DNA of 64,000 bases. It comes from Nonomuraea terrae (GTDB taxonomy: Bacteria > Actinomycetota > Actinomycetes > Streptosporangiales > Streptosporangiaceae). The position numbers were made by a program, and so were the translations under genes. Each line of letters starts with the position of its first letter. Positions within the stretch are counted from its first letter, which is position 1. The stretch lies in contig NZ_SMKQ01000008.1 of NCBI RefSeq assembly GCF_004348995.1, positions 1-64,000 of the forward strand. The letters run 5' to 3'. The notes beneath the pieces were generated by a model. The model saw nothing but the letters and a program-made list of their open reading frames with translations. It was not told the DNA's origin and searched no databases. Of the stretch, positions 6,519 to 23,425 are shown one piece after another.

Positions 6519-6591
6519 GGGGCCTTAGCTCAGTTGGCAGAGCGCCTGCTTTGCAAGCAGGAAGTCAGGAGTTCGAATCTCCTAGGCTCCA
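6519..6591 (+). tRNA. tRNA-Ala (anticodon TGC)
   Basis: The 73-base cloverleaf has acceptor arms GGGGCCT and AGGCTCC, anticodon stem CCTGC/GCAGG around loop TTTGCAA (anticodon TGC at 6552-6554), T-loop TTCGAAT and discriminator A. No CCA is encoded. The 3' end faces the prophage integrase, making it the probable integration target; the gene is intact after insertion. Confidence 0.97.
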
Positions 6592-6600
6592 CCCAGCTCA
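6572..6600. other. Probable left attachment site (attL) in the tRNA-Ala 3' end
   Basis: Inference from position. The tyrosine integrase gene ends 90 bases away and points at the tRNA 3' end, the usual geometry of tRNA-targeted phages. The core should include part of the T-arm and acceptor 3' strand. No second copy of this sequence was seen by eye elsewhere in the window, so the core cannot be delimited. Confidence 0.5.
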
Positions 6601-6680: not shown

Positions 6681-8372
6681 TTAACCCACTGTCGCGGCGG
6701 GGAATTCGAGGACCTCTCCGCGACGCTCGTACGGGGCGATCGGCTCCCGTCGTCCGTCACGGAATGGAGTCAGCAGCTCGTCGAGGACTTTCACCGGCGA
6801 GTGAAGATCGAACCAAGCTCGCCTTGCCAATGCGCCGTCCCACAACCGCTCCAGCTCTCCACGCAACCACACCCGAGACTCCGGCGTCACATGCGAGTAC
6901 CGTTCGCGCATCCCGCGCATGTCCGGCGAGGCGTGCCCCATCCGGTCGTCTCGAAGCTGCAGCGGACAACTCAGGTCCATCAGCCACGTCGAGTGCGTGT
7001 GCCGGCCGAGCTCGTGCAGAGTCAGCCCCTTCTCGACGGGCAGCCACGTGGCCACCGATGCGTCCGCAGGGACCGGCCGGATGAACCGGGCCAGTATCTG
7101 CTCGCGCGTCAACTGCCGCGCGTCCCTCTCCGTCATGCCCTGCCTGACAGCGAACGCGACCAAGTCGTTCTTGGATGACGCCGCGTTCACCCCGAGATGC
7201 AGTGGCCTCCGCTGATAGCCGCGGACAGGACGCGGCTCCCATGGCTCGCCCTTGACTGCCTTCGGCCACGACGGCACGGGAGCGCCTGGCCACGTCGAGT
7301 CGACCGCGACGAGGACGGGGTCTCCCGCCCTCCGCTTGCCTTTAGCGTCCGGGTACCAGCCGTCCACCGCAGGCTGGAACACCCGCCGGCTGAAGTTCGA
7401 ACGGCGCGGGTGGGCCCCTCGCTCACCCAGGAAGATGTAGGGCCCGCCCTGGCATGGCTGCTCTTCCTGGCCGGGGATTGTCCTCGGCTTGCAGGCGCAC
7501 TGCCGGTCCGGGTGGGCGGCGATCTGCCGGTTGAGCAGATCCTGCAGGAAAGGCGGGAGGTCGATGTCGCGGTTGCTGTCGTCCTTCGGCGGCAGGCGAT
7601 AGAACTCGCCGACTTCCTCCAGAAGCTGCCAGTCGAGGCGGATCTTCCCGAACTTCACGTCGGACCGCTGCAACCCGAACGCTTCCCCGTCTCGCAGCGC
7701 ACACCAGGCGACCGTCACCCCGAAGATGAACTCGTCGTCGCGGCCGGACATGACGCCCATGCGCTCTGCGGTGACGAGCGCATGGAACGGACTGATGGCC
7801 TTCTTCTCCTGGCCGCGGCCAGCGGTTCCGGCACCGGAGCGGCGCCCGCGGTGGCGTTGGCGCAGCGCCGGGTTGGAGCCGATCAGCCCTTCCGTGACGG
7901 CGTCGCCCAGGAGCGTGGTCAGGCGTGTGCGGGCGCTCTGAGCGACGCCGGTACGGCTGTACTCTGCCTGGATCATGCGCTGTTCCCACGCGTTCACATC
8001 GGACGCCTTGATGGCGCTCAGGGGCCAGTGCCCCCACTCGGGGAGCACGTGGGCCCTGAAGATGTAGGCGTAGTTGTTGCGGCCTTTCAAGCTCAGGTCG
8101 ATGCCCGGCCACCAGCGGGCGAACCACTGATCGACCGTGACCTCGTCCTCGTCTGCCGCCTCCGGCTCGGGCTGCTGCTTCCGCTTTCGGTAGTCCGGGG
8201 CGAGGCCTCGCTGTTCGAGGTCCTCCATCCAGTTGCCCCACGACTCCGCCTCCTCGGCGTCCGCCCAGTACTCCCCCGTGTCGGGATGGCGCGACTTGGT
8301 CCCGTAGCTGCCATCGGCCCGCTTCCAGCGGGCCACGATGACGCTGTCCTTGCGGACTTGGTGGAACGCCAT
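6681..8372 (-). CDS. int: Tyrosine-type phage integrase
   Basis: The product is 563 residues from an ATG at 8372 with AAGGAG six bases upstream. An Arg-rich arm-binding N-terminus and a core-binding domain (about 80-190) precede the catalytic domain. R227 lies in CALRDGEAFGL, HELGRHTH spans 453-460, RMGHASPDM is around 480, and the nucleophile is Y492 in RERYSHV. The protein is long for the family because about 150 residues, with a Cys-containing stretch near 291-307, lie between R227 and the His-Arg box. It recombines the phage with tRNA-Ala and is the last gene of a leftward three-gene operon. Confidence 0.93.
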   Translation of the reverse strand: MAFHQVRKDSVIVARWKRADGSYGTKSRHPDTGEYWADAEEAESWGNWMEDLEQRGLAPDYRKRKQQPEPEAADEDEVTVDQWFARWWPGIDLSLKGRNNYAYIFRAHVLPEWGHWPLSAIKASDVNAWEQRMIQAEYSRTGVAQSARTRLTTLLGDAVTEGLIGSNPALRQRHRGRRSGAGTAGRGQEKKAISPFHALVTAERMGVMSGRDDEFIFGVTVAWCALRDGEAFGLQRSDVKFGKIRLDWQLLEEVGEFYRLPPKDDSNRDIDLPPFLQDLLNRQIAAHPDRQCACKPRTIPGQEEQPCQGGPYIFLGERGAHPRRSNFSRRVFQPAVDGWYPDAKGKRRAGDPVLVAVDSTWPGAPVPSWPKAVKGEPWEPRPVRGYQRRPLHLGVNAASSKNDLVAFAVRQGMTERDARQLTREQILARFIRPVPADASVATWLPVEKGLTLHELGRHTHSTWLMDLSCPLQLRDDRMGHASPDMRGMRERYSHVTPESRVWLRGELERLWDGALARRAWFDLHSPVKVLDELLTPFRDGRREPIAPYERRGEVLEFPAATVG

Positions 8373-8410
8373 GGAGGGCTCCTTGAGGGTTGAGGGGGAT
8401 GGAACGCAGG

Positions 8411-9331
8411 CTAGCCGAGGACGCAGAGGTCGATGCCGCCGATCCCGATCCCTATGCCGTCGCATTCATCGTCTCCGGAGTCGGGCCCAGGATCCTCCGG
8501 CTCAGGTTCAGGCTCAGGTTCAGGCTCGGGTTCGGGTTCGGGTTCAGGCTCCGGTTCGCCCTCAGGCTCGGCCTCGGGGCGGGGTTCGTCCGGTCGCGGG
8601 TTGGGTTCCTGCTCAGGCGTCGGCTCCGGTCCCGACTCCGGCTCAGCCTCTGGGAGCGTGGCGGAGTCCGCGGCCCTCGGGCTGCTACTCGGCGGGTCGG
8701 CACGTTGAGACCGCTCAGGTGCGGCGGCATTCTCCTCGGCCTGCCGGGTTTGGCGCGCGGCCGGCGGGTCGCCGGCAGGTGAGGACGCGCGAGCAGGCGG
8801 GGGATCGCTGGATCGTTCCGGAGATGGATCACGCGGCGGCCTAGGAGCAGGGTCCTGAGGTCGGTCAGCACCGGGCTGGTCAGCCTGCTGATCGGCAGAG
8901 GGTTGGGCCTCTCGCGATGTCCGCGGCTGGTCCGGTGTCGCAGTGATCGTCACCGGCGGCCTGGGCGGAAGCGTGATAACGCGCGCGGCCGTAGGCGGCT
9001 GCTCAAGAGGTTGGGGCTCCACGGCTACCGAGACGAGGGCGTAAGCGCTCGTGGAGACCACCGCGGTGCCGGCGGCGACCGCGACCGCCATCTGACTGCG
9101 ACTGGACCGTTTCGCCCACTCGACGAGTGATCCCAGACCGCTGACGCCCCCAAGCCAGATGATCACTCTTTTGATCGCCGATTTCGCGGCGGGGTCGTCG
9201 CGATTAACGAGCAGCATTGTGTTTTCGTCACCGTCATCAAACGTGAGCGACATCGCGCCTATCTCACGCTCCAGGCTTTCCCGTCGGTAATGCCGGACGA
9301 CGTTGTCTGACTTATCCGATCGGCTACTCAT
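8411..9331 (-). CDS. Single-pass membrane protein with long Pro/Glu-rich tail
   Basis: The product is 306 residues. The N-terminal 75 are soluble and charged, and a transmembrane helix lies at about 80-103. Beyond it come some 180 residues dominated by Pro, Ala, Ser, Arg and Glu, ending in an uninterrupted (Glu-Pro)n run around 250-275 and a hydrophobic Gly-Ile C-terminus with two Cys. No family is recognised. It sits between the integrase and a small soluble protein (4-base overlap with the latter), so it is expressed from the prophage lysogeny operon. Such a stalk could span the actinobacterial wall; a role in superinfection control is speculation. Confidence 0.75.
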
Positions 9332-17537: not shown

Positions 17538-17721
17538 CCTGACCGCCCTGGAGCGGCCGACGGACGCGGAACTGGACGCCCGAGTGGCCCGCGCTGTCGC
17601 CCACCACAACCGCCAGCACGCCCGCGTCGACCTCGCCGCCGAGCTTGTGGAGCTCGCCGCGCAACTCCTGGCCACCCCCACCCCCCACGTTGAGAAGGAG
17701 AAGACCAGTGGCGACGCCTAA
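17527..17721 (+). CDS. Hypothetical small helical protein
   Basis: The product is 64 residues, overlapping the previous gene by eleven bases. Two helices (DAELDARVARAVAHHNRQH and LAAELVELAAQLLA) could form a hairpin dimer. Its 3' end contains the ribosome binding site AAGGAGAAG of the WhiB gene. No family is recognised. Confidence 0.55.
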   Translation: MAPDLTALERPTDAELDARVARAVAHHNRQHARVDLAAELVELAAQLLATPTPHVEKEKTSGDA

Positions 17722-18172
17722 CTGGAACTGGACCGAGCGTGCCGCGTGCCGCGGCGCGGACCTGCTGCTGTTCTTCGGCCGGCCCGGCGAGCGGATCGAC
17801 GAGCGGCAGGCGCGTGAGGCGAGGGCGACCGCGATCTGCGGGCGCTGCCCCGTGCAGCAGACCTGCCTTCAGGGTGCGTTCGAGCGCAATGAGGGCGCGG
17901 GAGTTTGGGGTGGCCTCGGGGAGGACGAGAGGCGCTCCAGGCGCCGCGCGTGGCAGAGGAGAACCTCCTACGAGAGGCGTGCGGACACCGCAGAAACGGA
18001 GCCCGTCACGGCGAAGTGGTGCCCCGCCTGCACTGAGACGAAGCCTGCCGGCGACTTCCCGAAGGACCGCCGCCAGTCCGATGGCCTCAACCGGTACTGC
18101 AAGCCGTGCACCAACGAGGCCAACCGCGAGGTGCGGGCGCGTCAGCGGCAGCAGAAGGAGGCGGTGGCGTGA
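17708..18172 (+). CDS. WhiB-like regulator fused to a treble-clef zinc finger
   Basis: The product is 154 residues from GTG 17708. Residues 1-80 are a WhiB domain: Cys14, Cys44-x2-Cys47-x5-Cys53 for a 4Fe-4S cluster, and the GVWGG turn at 65-69, with a basic region after it. Residues 104-140 form a second metal module with CPAC (105-108) and CKPC (131-134) around KPAGDFPKDRRQSDG, like the N-terminal finger of phage recombination nucleases. WhiB proteins bind sigma factors and sense redox or NO. Phage WhiBs can act as dominant negatives, but this fusion is unusual. Confidence 0.85.
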   Translation: MATPNWNWTERAACRGADLLLFFGRPGERIDERQAREARATAICGRCPVQQTCLQGAFERNEGAGVWGGLGEDERRSRRRAWQRRTSYERRADTAETEPVTAKWCPACTETKPAGDFPKDRRQSDGLNRYCKPCTNEANREVRARQRQQKEAVA

Positions 18173-19826: not shown

Positions 19827-20636
19827 ATGACCTTGCGTCCGGTCGATCCGTTCGAGTGGCGTCGGATTGTGCGACGTTGCCGGCTCGGCGCGACGACCAA
19901 GCATGTGGCGTCAGTCCTGGCGGACTACGCGAGCCCGGACGGGTCGGATGTCCGGCCGGGCAACGATCGACTCGTCGCGGTGACGGAGCTCGGGGAGAAG
20001 ACGGTCCGGCGAGCTCTGGACAAGCTGCGGACGGTCGGCCTGATCCTTCGCGTGTTTGAGGGGTCGAAGCAGGGCCGGCGTGCGCTGGCAGACGAGTACC
20101 GGTTGACGGTCCCGGACGACCTCTCGGATCGGGTGGAGATGCTCGGCCCGGACGAGCGAGCACCGGTCAAGGTGACCGGTGATAAGCCGTCGAATCCTGT
20201 GGATAACCCAGTGGATAACGCCGAAACACCGGTCACTGAGACCGCTGATCCTGACCTGTACGACGTAGAACACCGGTCACTGGAGACCGGAACACCGGTC
20301 ACTGAGTCCAGGAACACCGGTCACGGTGACCGCCCACCTAACCAAGCACCTACCAACACACCTACCAACAACTCAAATGACCGTGATCACTTCGGTTCCG
20401 TGGAAGGGAACGACGAAGCGGCTGAGCCGAAAAGCGATCAAGGTTTGAGTTACTCCGAGGCGTTCAAGATCAACAGCTCGCTCGGGGCTGAGATCGAAAC
20501 CTTCGTCCTCGCAGTCAAGGCCGACGCCATCGAATACGGCCTCGAACCGCCGAGCGGGCAAGCCCTCGCGGTCGCCGTAGCCAAACTCGCCCTCCTCAAG
20601 TACCCCCAGTTGCTTCCCGAACGGAGAACCGCATGA
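19827..20636 (+). CDS. Phage replication initiator, lambda O-like (winged helix)
   Basis: The product is 269 residues from ATG 19827. The N-terminal 90 form a winged helix (HVASVLADYASPDGSDVRPG, then LGEKTVRRALDKLRTVGLI) like phage O/DnaD initiators. Residues 110-200 are low-complexity, Asn/Thr/Pro-rich and encoded by the iteron region. The C-terminal 70 (LGAEIETFVLAVKADAIEYGL) are helical and may recruit the helicase. The DnaB-like gene starts within its stop codon. This is lambda logic: the initiator binds an origin inside its own gene. Confidence 0.8.
   Translation: MTLRPVDPFEWRRIVRRCRLGATTKHVASVLADYASPDGSDVRPGNDRLVAVTELGEKTVRRALDKLRTVGLILRVFEGSKQGRRALADEYRLTVPDDLSDRVEMLGPDERAPVKVTGDKPSNPVDNPVDNAETPVTETADPDLYDVEHRSLETGTPVTESRNTGHGDRPPNQAPTNTPTNNSNDRDHFGSVEGNDEAAEPKSDQGLSYSEAFKINSSLGAEIETFVLAVKADAIEYGLEPPSGQALAVAVAKLALLKYPQLLPERRTA
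20161..20324. other. Candidate prophage replication origin (iterons and DnaA-like boxes)
   Basis: Four copies of AACACCGGTCAC start at 20225, 20269, 20291 and 20313, so spacings are 44, 22 and 22 bases, all multiples of two helical turns. They fall in three different reading frames of the initiator gene. Upstream lie the perfect palindrome arms ACCGGTCA/TGACCGGT (20161-20179) and two GTGGATAA boxes; TGTGGATAA at 20197-20205 is a perfect DnaA box and the second is at 20209-20217. An AT-richer CA-repeat stretch follows (20335-20375). Confidence 0.75.
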
Positions 20637-21556
20637 CCCCCAACGAAACTCCCGCCGCGGACCTGGCCAGCGCCCTCAGCTCCGCTCCCAATCGCGAGCG
20701 CATCTCCACCGGATTCGCTCACCTCGACGCCCTCACCTCAGGAGGGCTCCCGCCTGGCACCCTGACCGTCATCGCCTCCCGGCCCGGCATGGGCCGCACC
20801 ACACTGCTGTACGACATCTGCCGCCACAACGCCATCCGCCACCACCTGGCGACGGGGCTGTGGACCCTGGAGGAGACCACCGAGGACGTCGCCACCCGCT
20901 TCCTGAGCGCCGAGACAGGGGTACCCCGCCACGCAATCCAGGCCGGCACCCTGGACGAAGAGGGCTGGCAGCGGATCGGCAAGCGGATGCAGGCCATTCA
21001 GGACGCCCCGATGATCGTCGATGCGCCACCGTCCCTCACAGCCGCCGAGATCGCCAGCAAAGCCACCGAACTGGTCGCAGAGCACGGAGTCCGCCTCATC
21101 GCCATCGACGGCATCCAGGACATCCGCCCGGAGAAGCGCAACGACCTTCGTGAACGCGAAGTTGGCGACGTCGTTCGCGATCTGAAGACCCTCGCTCGCG
21201 AACTCCAGGTCCCGATCGTCGCCACCTCGCACCTGAACCGCAGCCCTGAGTACCGACTCGACAAGCGGCCCCGGTTGGACGACCTACGCGAGTCAGGGGC
21301 AATCACCTTCGCCGCCGACCTGATCGTCATGGTGCACCGCGAGGACTACTACGACCCCGAGTCGCACCGCGTTGGCGAGGCCGACCTCATCTTGGCCAAG
21401 CACCGGTACGGCCACACCGCCATGCTCACTGTCGGCTTCCAAGGTCACTACAGCCGCTTCCTGGACCTTGGGCCCGACTTCAACCCGCCTCGCCCGACTG
21501 GGCCCGGGTTTGGATTCGCAAACATCTTCAAGGCTGGGCCGAAGGAGCCGTCATGA
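20633..21556 (+). CDS. DnaB-like helicase ATPase domain protein
   Basis: The product is 307 residues and corresponds to the RecA-like C-terminal domain of DnaB without the primase-binding N-domain. STGFAHLDALTSGG leads to the Walker A region SRPGMGRTT (49-57), where Arg55 replaces the usual Lys. IAIDGIQDI is the Walker B-like motif, and VATSHLNRSPE and LRESGAITFAADLI match DnaB motifs H3/H4. It directly follows the initiator, as helicase or helicase loader genes do. It may be a helicase or a loader-like ATPase. Confidence 0.8.
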   Translation: MTPNETPAADLASALSSAPNRERISTGFAHLDALTSGGLPPGTLTVIASRPGMGRTTLLYDICRHNAIRHHLATGLWTLEETTEDVATRFLSAETGVPRHAIQAGTLDEEGWQRIGKRMQAIQDAPMIVDAPPSLTAAEIASKATELVAEHGVRLIAIDGIQDIRPEKRNDLREREVGDVVRDLKTLARELQVPIVATSHLNRSPEYRLDKRPRLDDLRESGAITFAADLIVMVHREDYYDPESHRVGEADLILAKHRYGHTAMLTVGFQGHYSRFLDLGPDFNPPRPTGPGFGFANIFKAGPKEPS

Positions 21557-21834: not shown

Positions 21835-22229
21835 GCGAGCCCTTCCCGGTGTCCGTGCGGCGCCGGAGGCGAGACCGCGGTCTGACGCAGCAGCAGCTGG
21901 CCGACCTCGCAGACGTCAGCCGGGGCACCATCCGCAACATCGAGGGCGGCATGGAGCCGTATGCGGGGACTGTCGCCCGGGTCGAGAACGCGTTCGCCCG
22001 CTTCGACGAGTCCGCGACGGCTGTTGCGGTGGCCAACGGGCCGGCGCTGGTGTTCGTGGCTCCCGATGGTGCCGCTCACGCAGTCGACAGCGACCAGTGG
22101 AACGCGTCGGTTCTGTCGCCGCGGGATCGGACGCTGCTTCAGGCGCTGCTCGGCCATGTGACCGCCCGCCTCTCCGATCCCGGTCCCCCTGACCGCCCCC
22201 CGACACCAGACCTGAAGGAGCCCGCGTGA
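21831..22229 (+). CDS. XRE-family HTH protein
   Basis: The product is 132 residues. An N-terminal XRE helix-turn-helix (VRRRRRDRGLTQQQLADLA, then SRGTIRNIEGG) is followed by a beta-rich middle and a Pro-rich tail. It is coupled by 4-base overlaps to both neighbours, so it could control the methyltransferase as a C-protein-like regulator, or be another early regulator. Confidence 0.75.
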   Translation: MSEPFPVSVRRRRRDRGLTQQQLADLADVSRGTIRNIEGGMEPYAGTVARVENAFARFDESATAVAVANGPALVFVAPDGAAHAVDSDQWNASVLSPRDRTLLQALLGHVTARLSDPGPPDRPPTPDLKEPA

Positions 22230-23425
22230 ACGGAAGAGCGATCGTTCTCCGGGGAGACGCCCGCAACCTGCCCTTACCGGACGAGAGCGTCGACCTGATC
22301 GTGACGTCACCGCCGTACTACGGGCTGCGCGACTACCGCGACGGCGACGAGAGCCTCGCCGGCCAGATCGGCAACGAGCCGCACCCACGCGAGTACATCG
22401 ACAACCTCCTCGACTGCACCCGTGAATGGATGCGCGTGCTCAAGCCCGAAGGCTCGATCTGGGTCAACCTGGGCGACTCCTACTACAGCGGCCGTGGCGC
22501 CCCGAAGGGGCAGGACGCGAAGTCGCCGGCCCGCCGCTTCGGTGTCCGCCCCCTCGATCGGTCGGGCCTCGGCTTCCCGCCGAAGTCGCTGATCGGGCTG
22601 CCTTGGCGATACGCCATTGGATGCGTTGATGACCTCGGGCTGACATTGCGGGCCGAGGTAATCTGGGACAAGCCCAACGGGCTCCCTGAAAGCGTGACCG
22701 ACCGCGTCCGCCGCAGCCACGAGCACTGGTTCCACTTCACTCTTCAGCGCCGCTACTACTCCGCGGTTGATGAAATCCGGCAACCGGCCAGCGACTACTC
22801 CCGCCGCCCCGGAGCCCAGCGGGCGACACCGCCCGGTCAGCGCCGCCGCGCCATGGCCGACACGGTCAACCCGCTCGGTGCGCTTCCGGGCAGCGTTTGG
22901 GAGGTCGCCAGCCAGCCGCTCAACGTGCCCGAACACCTCGGCACCGACCACTACGCCGCCTTCCCCATGGAGTGGCCGCGCCGCATCATCCGCGGATGGT
23001 CGCCACCCGGCATCTGCACCGCCTGCGGCGAGGGCCGGCGCCCGGTGTGTGAGCGCACCCCGATGGTGTGGCGAGAGTCTCCGACGATCGCTGGCCGTAC
23101 CGGGGACCGTAGCTACAAGCCCGCGTCGGGCACGATGCTGACTCCGCCTGAGACCCGCATCACCGGCTACGCCTGCGCCTGCCCCACACCAGTCGCGCCC
23201 ACGCGGCCTGGGGTCGTGCTCGACCCGTTCGGCGGCTCGGGCACCACCTCGCTTGTCGCGGCCACGCTCGGCCGCCACGGCGTCAGCGTGGATCGTTCCG
23301 CCGACTACTGCCGCATCGCCCAGTGGCGCACCACCGACCCGGGGGAGCGCGCCCGAGCTCTGGGCCTGCCGAAGCCTCAGCCAGTCCACCCGGGCCAGGA
23401 CAGCTTGTTCGAGGAGATCGCATGA
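22226..23425 (+). CDS. DNA (N4/N6) methyltransferase
   Basis: The product is 399 residues from a GTG. Motif IV SPPY (28-31) is N-terminal and motif I DPFGGSGTT (about 333) C-terminal: the beta-class order of N4-cytosine/N6-adenine enzymes. A middle Cys cluster (CTACGEG...CERTP, later CACPTP) around 265-315 looks like a zinc insert. No endonuclease is adjacent, so it is an orphan methylase, probably protecting phage DNA or modulating expression. The target site is unknown. Confidence 0.9.
   Translation: MNGRAIVLRGDARNLPLPDESVDLIVTSPPYYGLRDYRDGDESLAGQIGNEPHPREYIDNLLDCTREWMRVLKPEGSIWVNLGDSYYSGRGAPKGQDAKSPARRFGVRPLDRSGLGFPPKSLIGLPWRYAIGCVDDLGLTLRAEVIWDKPNGLPESVTDRVRRSHEHWFHFTLQRRYYSAVDEIRQPASDYSRRPGAQRATPPGQRRRAMADTVNPLGALPGSVWEVASQPLNVPEHLGTDHYAAFPMEWPRRIIRGWSPPGICTACGEGRRPVCERTPMVWRESPTIAGRTGDRSYKPASGTMLTPPETRITGYACACPTPVAPTRPGVVLDPFGGSGTTSLVAATLGRHGVSVDRSADYCRIAQWRTTDPGERARALGLPKPQPVHPGQDSLFEEIA

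Follow-up and report, generated by a model that had tools for sequence, protein, structure and literature searches.

In phage lambda, dimers of the O protein bind 19-bp inverted repeats that lie inside the O gene itself, beside a weak A+T-rich stretch (PMC5043065). The RepA_N initiator of plasmid pSK41 is described as an N-terminal domain, a dispensable linker whose DNA holds the origin, and a C-terminal domain; its four Rep boxes lie midway along rep (PMC5703833). The same review describes the hybrid pPR9, whose N-terminal domain is of the pfam13730 type and resembles a putative phage replication protein, and says that staphylococcal plasmids had so far yielded no DnaA boxes (PMC5703833). The Rep_3 iteron plasmids P1, F, pSC101, R6K and RK2 have helically phased iterons, one or more DnaA sites and a weak stretch (PMC5043065). 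Extrachromosomal mycobacterial prophages carry HTH RepA-like initiators, and the authors suspected that, by analogy with lambda, the origin lies inside repA or directly ahead of it (PMC7157519, mBio 2020). No repeated motifs are identified in the regions described there, and "DnaA" occurs 0 times in the main text (PMC7157519). Intragenic iteron origins are already known, then, from lambda and pSK41, and what is new here is the presence of DnaA boxes within one. We found no report of intragenic iterons combined with a DnaA box in the open-access literature (subscription papers unchecked). To our knowledge the origins of most actinophages have not been mapped.

The DNA considered here, called the window, is a stretch of 64,000 nucleotides at the start of a 106-kb contig, from the 9.69-Mb genome of Nonomuraea terrae. 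Repeat comparison finds a 45-bp direct repeat with one copy at the 3' end of tRNA-Ala(tgc) (6549-6593, + strand), the attL core, and a second beyond the window at contig position 78749-78793. The initiator gene discussed below is also found in a 68.6-kb viral contig in IMG/VR. Together the repeat and the viral contig imply an integrated prophage of ~72 kb at the tRNA-Ala gene, and the gene at 19827-20636 is inside it. The prophage also codes for a WhiB-family regulator (17708-18172, Pfam E 8.5e-20) and an N6_N4 DNA methylase (22226-23425, Pfam E 7.8e-36). A 594-aa ORF on the - strand (6681-8465) adjoins attL, the place expected for an integrase; it has no Pfam match at E 0.001 and may not be the true frame.

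The gene at 19827-20636 (+ strand) encodes 269 aa and is assigned as the initiator from PHROG matches and structure prediction. It matches PHROG replication initiation and O-like families with a best E of 2.9e-12, the O-like families falling between 8.2e-9 and 1.4e-7. Three Pfam families are listed at E <= 0.1, and the best match of this protein is PF13730 (HTH_36), a near miss at 22.5 bits against a cut-off of 25 (E 9.7e-5). AlphaFold2 predicts a winged helix at aa 1-110 (block pLDDT 69-95 up to residue 110), a disordered linker at aa 115-216 (pLDDT mostly <50), and two C-terminal helices at 217-258 of moderate confidence (pLDDT about 64-70 over 221-260). By its coordinates the linker coincides with the stretch that codes for the candidate origin. 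A structure search with the N-domain ranks "4pt7 Structure of initiator" at the top and places "5kbj Structure of Rep-DNA complex" in fifth position, at E values of only 0.010-0.017; we take both to be staphylococcal RepA structures. Another structure search gives a mix of many winged helices. The likeness is to winged helices and to no decisive family.

We argue that 20159-20407, in the linker DNA of the initiator gene, is the origin of this prophage, where the winged-helix initiator and host DnaA would open a CCACCTA tandem. Judging from sequence, we give this reading a probability of roughly 0.8. The locus resembles ori-lambda in having its putative binding repeats within the initiator's own gene and a weak stretch adjoining them. 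It differs in its 22-bp phasing, in having a DnaA box in the array, and in that lambda-O is not among the three Pfam families listed at E <= 0.1. A DnaB-type helicase domain comes next in the window rather than a lambda-P-type helicase-loader gene. As in pSK41, predicted structure and position put the candidate origin in the linker between N- and C-terminal domains. The N-terminal domain of pPR9 is pfam13730, the same family as the sub-threshold best match here, but unlike the RepA_N plasmids the window protein has no RepA_N match at E <= 0.1. Phased iterons, a DnaA box and a weak stretch are all shared with the Rep_3 iteron plasmids. Those initiators bind mostly direct repeats as monomers, however, and the window protein lacks a Rep_3 match at the same threshold. 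The origin of iteron plasmids lies outside the rep gene. HTH RepA-like initiators are common to the mycobacterial extrachromosomal prophages and the window. The element very probably joins intragenic iterons of the lambda-O type to host DnaA boxes.

The initial annotation had claimed four phased repeats here, and they are exact: the 12-mer AACACCGGTCAC starts at 20225, 20269, 20291 and 20313, with spacings of 44, 22 and 22, all multiples of 22. These four are its only occurrences in the whole 9.69-Mb host assembly. The 9-mer CACCGGTCA has six copies in the linker DNA, in 22-bp phase and mostly as imperfect dyads. The extra copies at 20161(+) and 20173(-) stand head-to-head and make up the palindrome that the annotation had reported. 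This pair is iteron 1 (20159-20183), with a dyad of 8/9. Iterons 2 (20225-20236) and 3 (20269-20280) are copies of AACACCGGTCAC on the + strand with dyads of 7/9, and iteron 4 (20291-20302, +), also AACACCGGTCAC, has a weak second half-site of 5/9. The last, iteron 5 (20313-20332, +), is a CGGTCAC-G-GTGACCG dyad adjoining the weak stretch. Four of the five iterons have an imperfect dyad and one is weak, a count for which no null was computed. Symmetry elsewhere is suggestive only: across 15 regions, 0.006 to 0.54 of the 24-mers in the same gene are at least as symmetric as the last-iteron dyad (for L010, L011 and L013 an earlier motif copy was scored). The iteron examined in the relatives is often unexceptional in this respect for its gene.

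The four AACACCGGTCAC copies fall in codon phases 2, 1, 2 and 0 from the gene start at 19827, so they occupy three phases, as had been said; this is automatic from the spacing, because 22 mod 3 = 1. One can imagine a scenario where selection acts on the linker as a repetitive peptide in which PVDN is a functional motif, and the DNA repeats only follow. PVDN is invariant in the alignment, and some relatives do have in-frame repeats such as PGAAP. Repeats read in three codon phases argue against this, as does their excess over permutations that preserve the protein. The top count of any single 9-mer in the gene is 6, and 400 synonymous-codon permutations never give more than 3. The three-unit array at 22 bp agrees at 12/12 columns, a score that 0/200 permutations reach. 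The predicted disorder of the linker also speaks against a peptide function.

A DnaA box is found among these iterons at 20196-20207 on the - strand. It is CCTGTGGATAAC on the + strand and TTATCCACA on the - strand, and the gene reads it as Pro-Val-Asp-Asn. This is the perfect box of the initial annotation, and it is the sole TTATCCACA in the 64-kb window; GTGGATAAC occurs twice, and all of these are in this element. The form TGTGGATAA occupies 20198-20206, and at 20210-20218 stands a copy with one mismatch. The latter belongs to a second DnaA-box-like site, CCAGTGGATAAC (20208-20219, - strand), with one mismatch in the 9-mer. The 12-bp form of the box has three occurrences in the 9.69-Mb genome. 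The analysis also looked at host DnaA boxes near dnaA, with no host consensus drawn from them.

Past the last iteron is a C/A-rich, G-poor tandem of 11-12-bp units (CCACCTA..., 20334-20388, + strand), a probable DNA-unwinding element. The least stable 50-mer of the gene starts at 20338, which bears out the AT-richer stretch that had been claimed; just 0.12% of the 50-mers in the window have a stability this low. The 50-nt stretches at 20329 and 20333 have 2 G each, and no such stretch on either strand of the window has fewer. Further on, GTGGAAGG (20400-20407, +) is the retained part of an element GCTGANGTGGAAGG. In most homologues (L007, L008, L009, L011, L013) GCTGANGTGGAAGG is a second codon-rigid DNA element after the weak stretch. 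Its peptide is AEVEG or ADVEG, and copies with AGGTGG match CCACCT in reverse complement.

Searching 297 genomes of the order with the protein gave relatives in 26, and a profile search of 345 genomes gave relatives in 25 at E <= 1e-8. Their alignment offered no stretch conserved enough to look for related loci directly, and DNA patterns served in its place. From these and from a DNA pattern we assembled 12 genes, the window included, picked for the linker tetrapeptide PVDN. Eight of them, with the window, come from the protein search, L093 and L098 from both profile and DNA pattern, L109 from the profile only and L061 from the DNA pattern only. All 12 contain CCTGTGGATAAC, and 14 of 16 PVDN tetrapeptides are written with it. 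The pooled synonymous chance of CCTGTGGATAAC is 0.012 per gene (about 1 in 80), a nominal figure since the genes are related; homologues share ancestry and binomial figures overstate their independence. A selection-free check gives CCTGTGGATAAC in 11 of the 12 best-scoring genomes of the profile search, G113 being the one without it. The Asp codon in PVDN is GAT in 12/12, an uncommon choice, where four conserved Asp columns in the N-domain have GAC in 10/10, 9/10, 7/10 and 9/10. Codons are also rigid at CCA-CCT (11/12 and 10/11) and then at GCT, GTG and GAA (10/10, 11/11 and 12/12), and conserved N-domain columns mostly mix synonymous codons. In the M. smegmatis phage IdentityCrisis (L141) the box variant CCTGTGAATAAC translates, in our own reading, as PVNN, which is a further point against the peptide. 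The proposal of an actinophage origin that combines initiator iterons with host DnaA boxes gains support here, as close relatives keep the very codons of its DnaA-box part.

The iterons behave differently from the box. There are at least seven iteron sequences among the 12 genes: CACCGGTCAC in the window and L061, CACCGGACA in L007 and L098, CAGGTGTCA in L008, CCACCGGCA in L009, CACCGGGTGC or CGCCGGGTGC in L010, L013 and L016, ACACCCGGTGC in L011 and L093, and another in L109. Their place and layout are kept. When homologous genes are searched for iterons at the matching position, the close relatives come out positive: place, phase and neighbours are conserved, but the iteron sequence itself varies. 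A three-unit array at lag 22 is present in 9/12 genes with 11-12 of 12 columns agreeing, and 0/200 permutations reach it in each. The exact array is missing in L061 (21/22 spacing), L016 and L109. In the 9-mer test 0/400 permutations reach the observed count in L006, L061, L008, L009, L010, L013 and L109. It is reached in 9 of 400 for L016, 17 for L093, 19 for L011, 185 for L098 and 241 for L007; the last four of these pass the 22-bp test and L016 fails it. This leaves 11/12 genes that beat every synonymous permutation in at least one of the two repeat tests, with L016 marginal (9/400). The initiator genes of G318 (L093) and Nonomuraea sediminis (L087) are identical.

Box and CCACCTA are separated by 138 or 126 bp in 9/12 genes. 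CCACCTA is present in the aligned homologues, as CCACCGA in L016, and in L098 it was placed at 1978. The weakest 50-mer starts within 7 nt of CCACCTA in 9/12, of CCACCGA in L016 and of another tract in L109; L007 is the exception, with its weakest 50-mer not at CCACCTA. Searching for box-N(104-134)-CCACCTA hits 10 of 345 genomes of the order, eight of them (window included) in the initiator family, and the reversed control pattern hits 0/345. The other two, L075 and L079, match the pattern but are not members of this gene family and were rejected. Among 39 viral stretches that match the two-part pattern only L039, L047 and L061 resemble the window initiator, judged from the listed peptides. 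L039 is this prophage, and L047 shares its listed peptide with L088 of Spongiactinospora rosea. L073 may have a different initiator-like protein.

This arrangement bears on what the box does. The origin could stand as we describe it while DnaA acts through transcription or titration and not in the opening complex: DnaA might regulate the replication operon, or the phage might soak up DnaA to slow host initiation. A box alone is silent on the role of DnaA, and boxes vary in number and orientation, with L117 and L145 having one of each orientation. We nevertheless consider this unlikely. The box is among the iterons, at 126 or 138 bp from CCACCTA in 9/12 relatives, it is about 0.37 kb into the gene and not at its promoter, and for titration one or two boxes would be a small number. 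A further box past the weak stretch is seen in L008 (2142), L117 (2101) and L145 (2115), and in relaxed form in L007 (2070), so that these loci have boxes to either side of the weak stretch.

The module is not always inside the frame. In L117 (G445) and in L145, a Micromonospora record deposited as a plasmid (CP108834.1), the initiator ORF is short and has only the winged-helix part. One iteron overlaps the end of the ORF, and the other iterons, two DnaA boxes and the CCACC stretch come after it. In L099 the initiator frame ends just ahead of two boxes and repeats, and this gene may be broken. Box and repeats that persist untranslated in these three loci imply that the DNA is what is kept. With the codon phases, the permutations, the CCTGTGGATAAC codon use and the disordered linker on the same side, we reject the peptide reading as very improbable, and argue that it is the DNA and not the peptide that is conserved in the linker.

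The same loci matter for the idea that the array is an operator, bound by the initiator to limit transcription of its own gene while replication starts elsewhere. Initiators that bind iterons often autoregulate, and the array does stand between the initiator start and the helicase gene. It is about 330-505 bp past the start codon, however, where it adjoins both a DnaA box and the weakest DNA, and in L145 and L117 most of it comes after the initiator ORF. It is improbable that autoregulation accounts for this layout.

An origin at 20159-20407 suggests the following mechanism. Once the prophage is induced, the initiator, probably dimeric, would bind the phased ~20-bp iterons through its winged-helix domain, and host DnaA would bind the adjoining box or boxes within the same complex. 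This complex would open the adjoining G-poor CCACCTA tandem, where a helicase would be loaded. We infer all four events at this element, namely binding, melting, helicase loading and replication start. Such an origin would work like ori-lambda and that of pSK41, with a DnaA contribution familiar from iteron plasmids. The helicase here may be the phage's own DnaB-type protein, as the next gene (20633-21556, +), whose start overlaps the initiator stop, has a DnaB-type C-terminal domain (PF03796, E 2.8e-70). The initial annotation expected a DnaB partner to follow, and this is true of this prophage but not conserved. Among 37 loci, most with ~1.5 kb of flank, a DnaB match is found only in the window and in one Pseudomonas phage, where it is 1.3 kb downstream.

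Away from the close relatives the picture is more mixed. The 9-mer test was applied to 34 N-domain relatives, window included. Permutations never reach the observed count in 12, reach it in 4-9 of 400 in L022, L017, L016 and L027, and reach it more often in the other 18. L024 and L026, also N-domain relatives, have no repeat excess in this test; their C-terminus seems nuclease-like in our own reading of the peptide. A related group of initiators (RWNTFIR...; L015, L018, L020, L023) has its repeats, 3-4 copies of a 9-mer, immediately past the gene and not inside it. Outside the PVDN clade the weakest 50-mer starts 14-27 nt past the beginning of the last iteron in 6/12 loci and elsewhere in six. 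A plasmid search with the window protein gave two records, L145 with the module and the Rhodococcus plasmid L146, an N-domain relative, with no clear repeats and no box. Homologues lacking repeats had been named beforehand as evidence against an origin here. The close relatives all have iterons, and some distant ones lack a strict box or clear repeats.

Of 30 hand-chosen initiator-like regions that were scanned, 17 have a strict DnaA box and 20 have a relaxed one, where shuffling gives a strict box in 0-2 of 200 for each. The 13 regions with no strict box include 10 with not even a relaxed one, and several of these have clear iterons, which implies that DnaA is not needed for such origins in general. 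DnaA boxes are common, then, but not universal in these candidate origins. The module is coding in Nonomuraea and in Mycobacterium phages, and most of it is non-coding in G445 and in the record from Micromonospora. We lean towards a widespread class of actinobacterial phage and plasmid origins, in which DnaA and a winged-helix initiator would assemble inside the initiator's coding sequence. In this class the box would be kept through codon choice, the iterons would change with the initiator, and the module would move in and out of frame. The signature of iterons, CCTGTGGATAAC and a G-poor CCACC tandem marks a probable origin to within about 250 bp and suggests a DnaA-assisted phage origin of the lambda type. 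It is a clean case of an overlapping DNA function shaping a coding sequence, and it could yield replicons for genera with few vectors.

In the named-phage collection no relative of the window protein or of L010 was found, and remote relatives of L009 and L019 were. One is gp53 of Mycobacterium phage phiGD34-2 (tblastn from L009, E 8e-4), linked through G445. The remote initiators of phages Farewell and Rem711 have neither clear repeats nor a box, and a Pseudomonas phage (L133) and JSGardenL2 (L134) have repeats without a box. IdentityCrisis, WST1 and phiGD21-1 have iterons and relaxed DnaA boxes only. In phiGD34-2 and its close relatives prophi62-1 and prophiGD08-2 one or two TTGTCCACA boxes lie between iterons in a distantly related gene. 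In gene 53 of phiGD34-2 (L132, 2792-2942) iteron and DnaA box form a joint 33-bp repeat unit, and the last iteron is followed by CCCACCTA, just as it is in the window.
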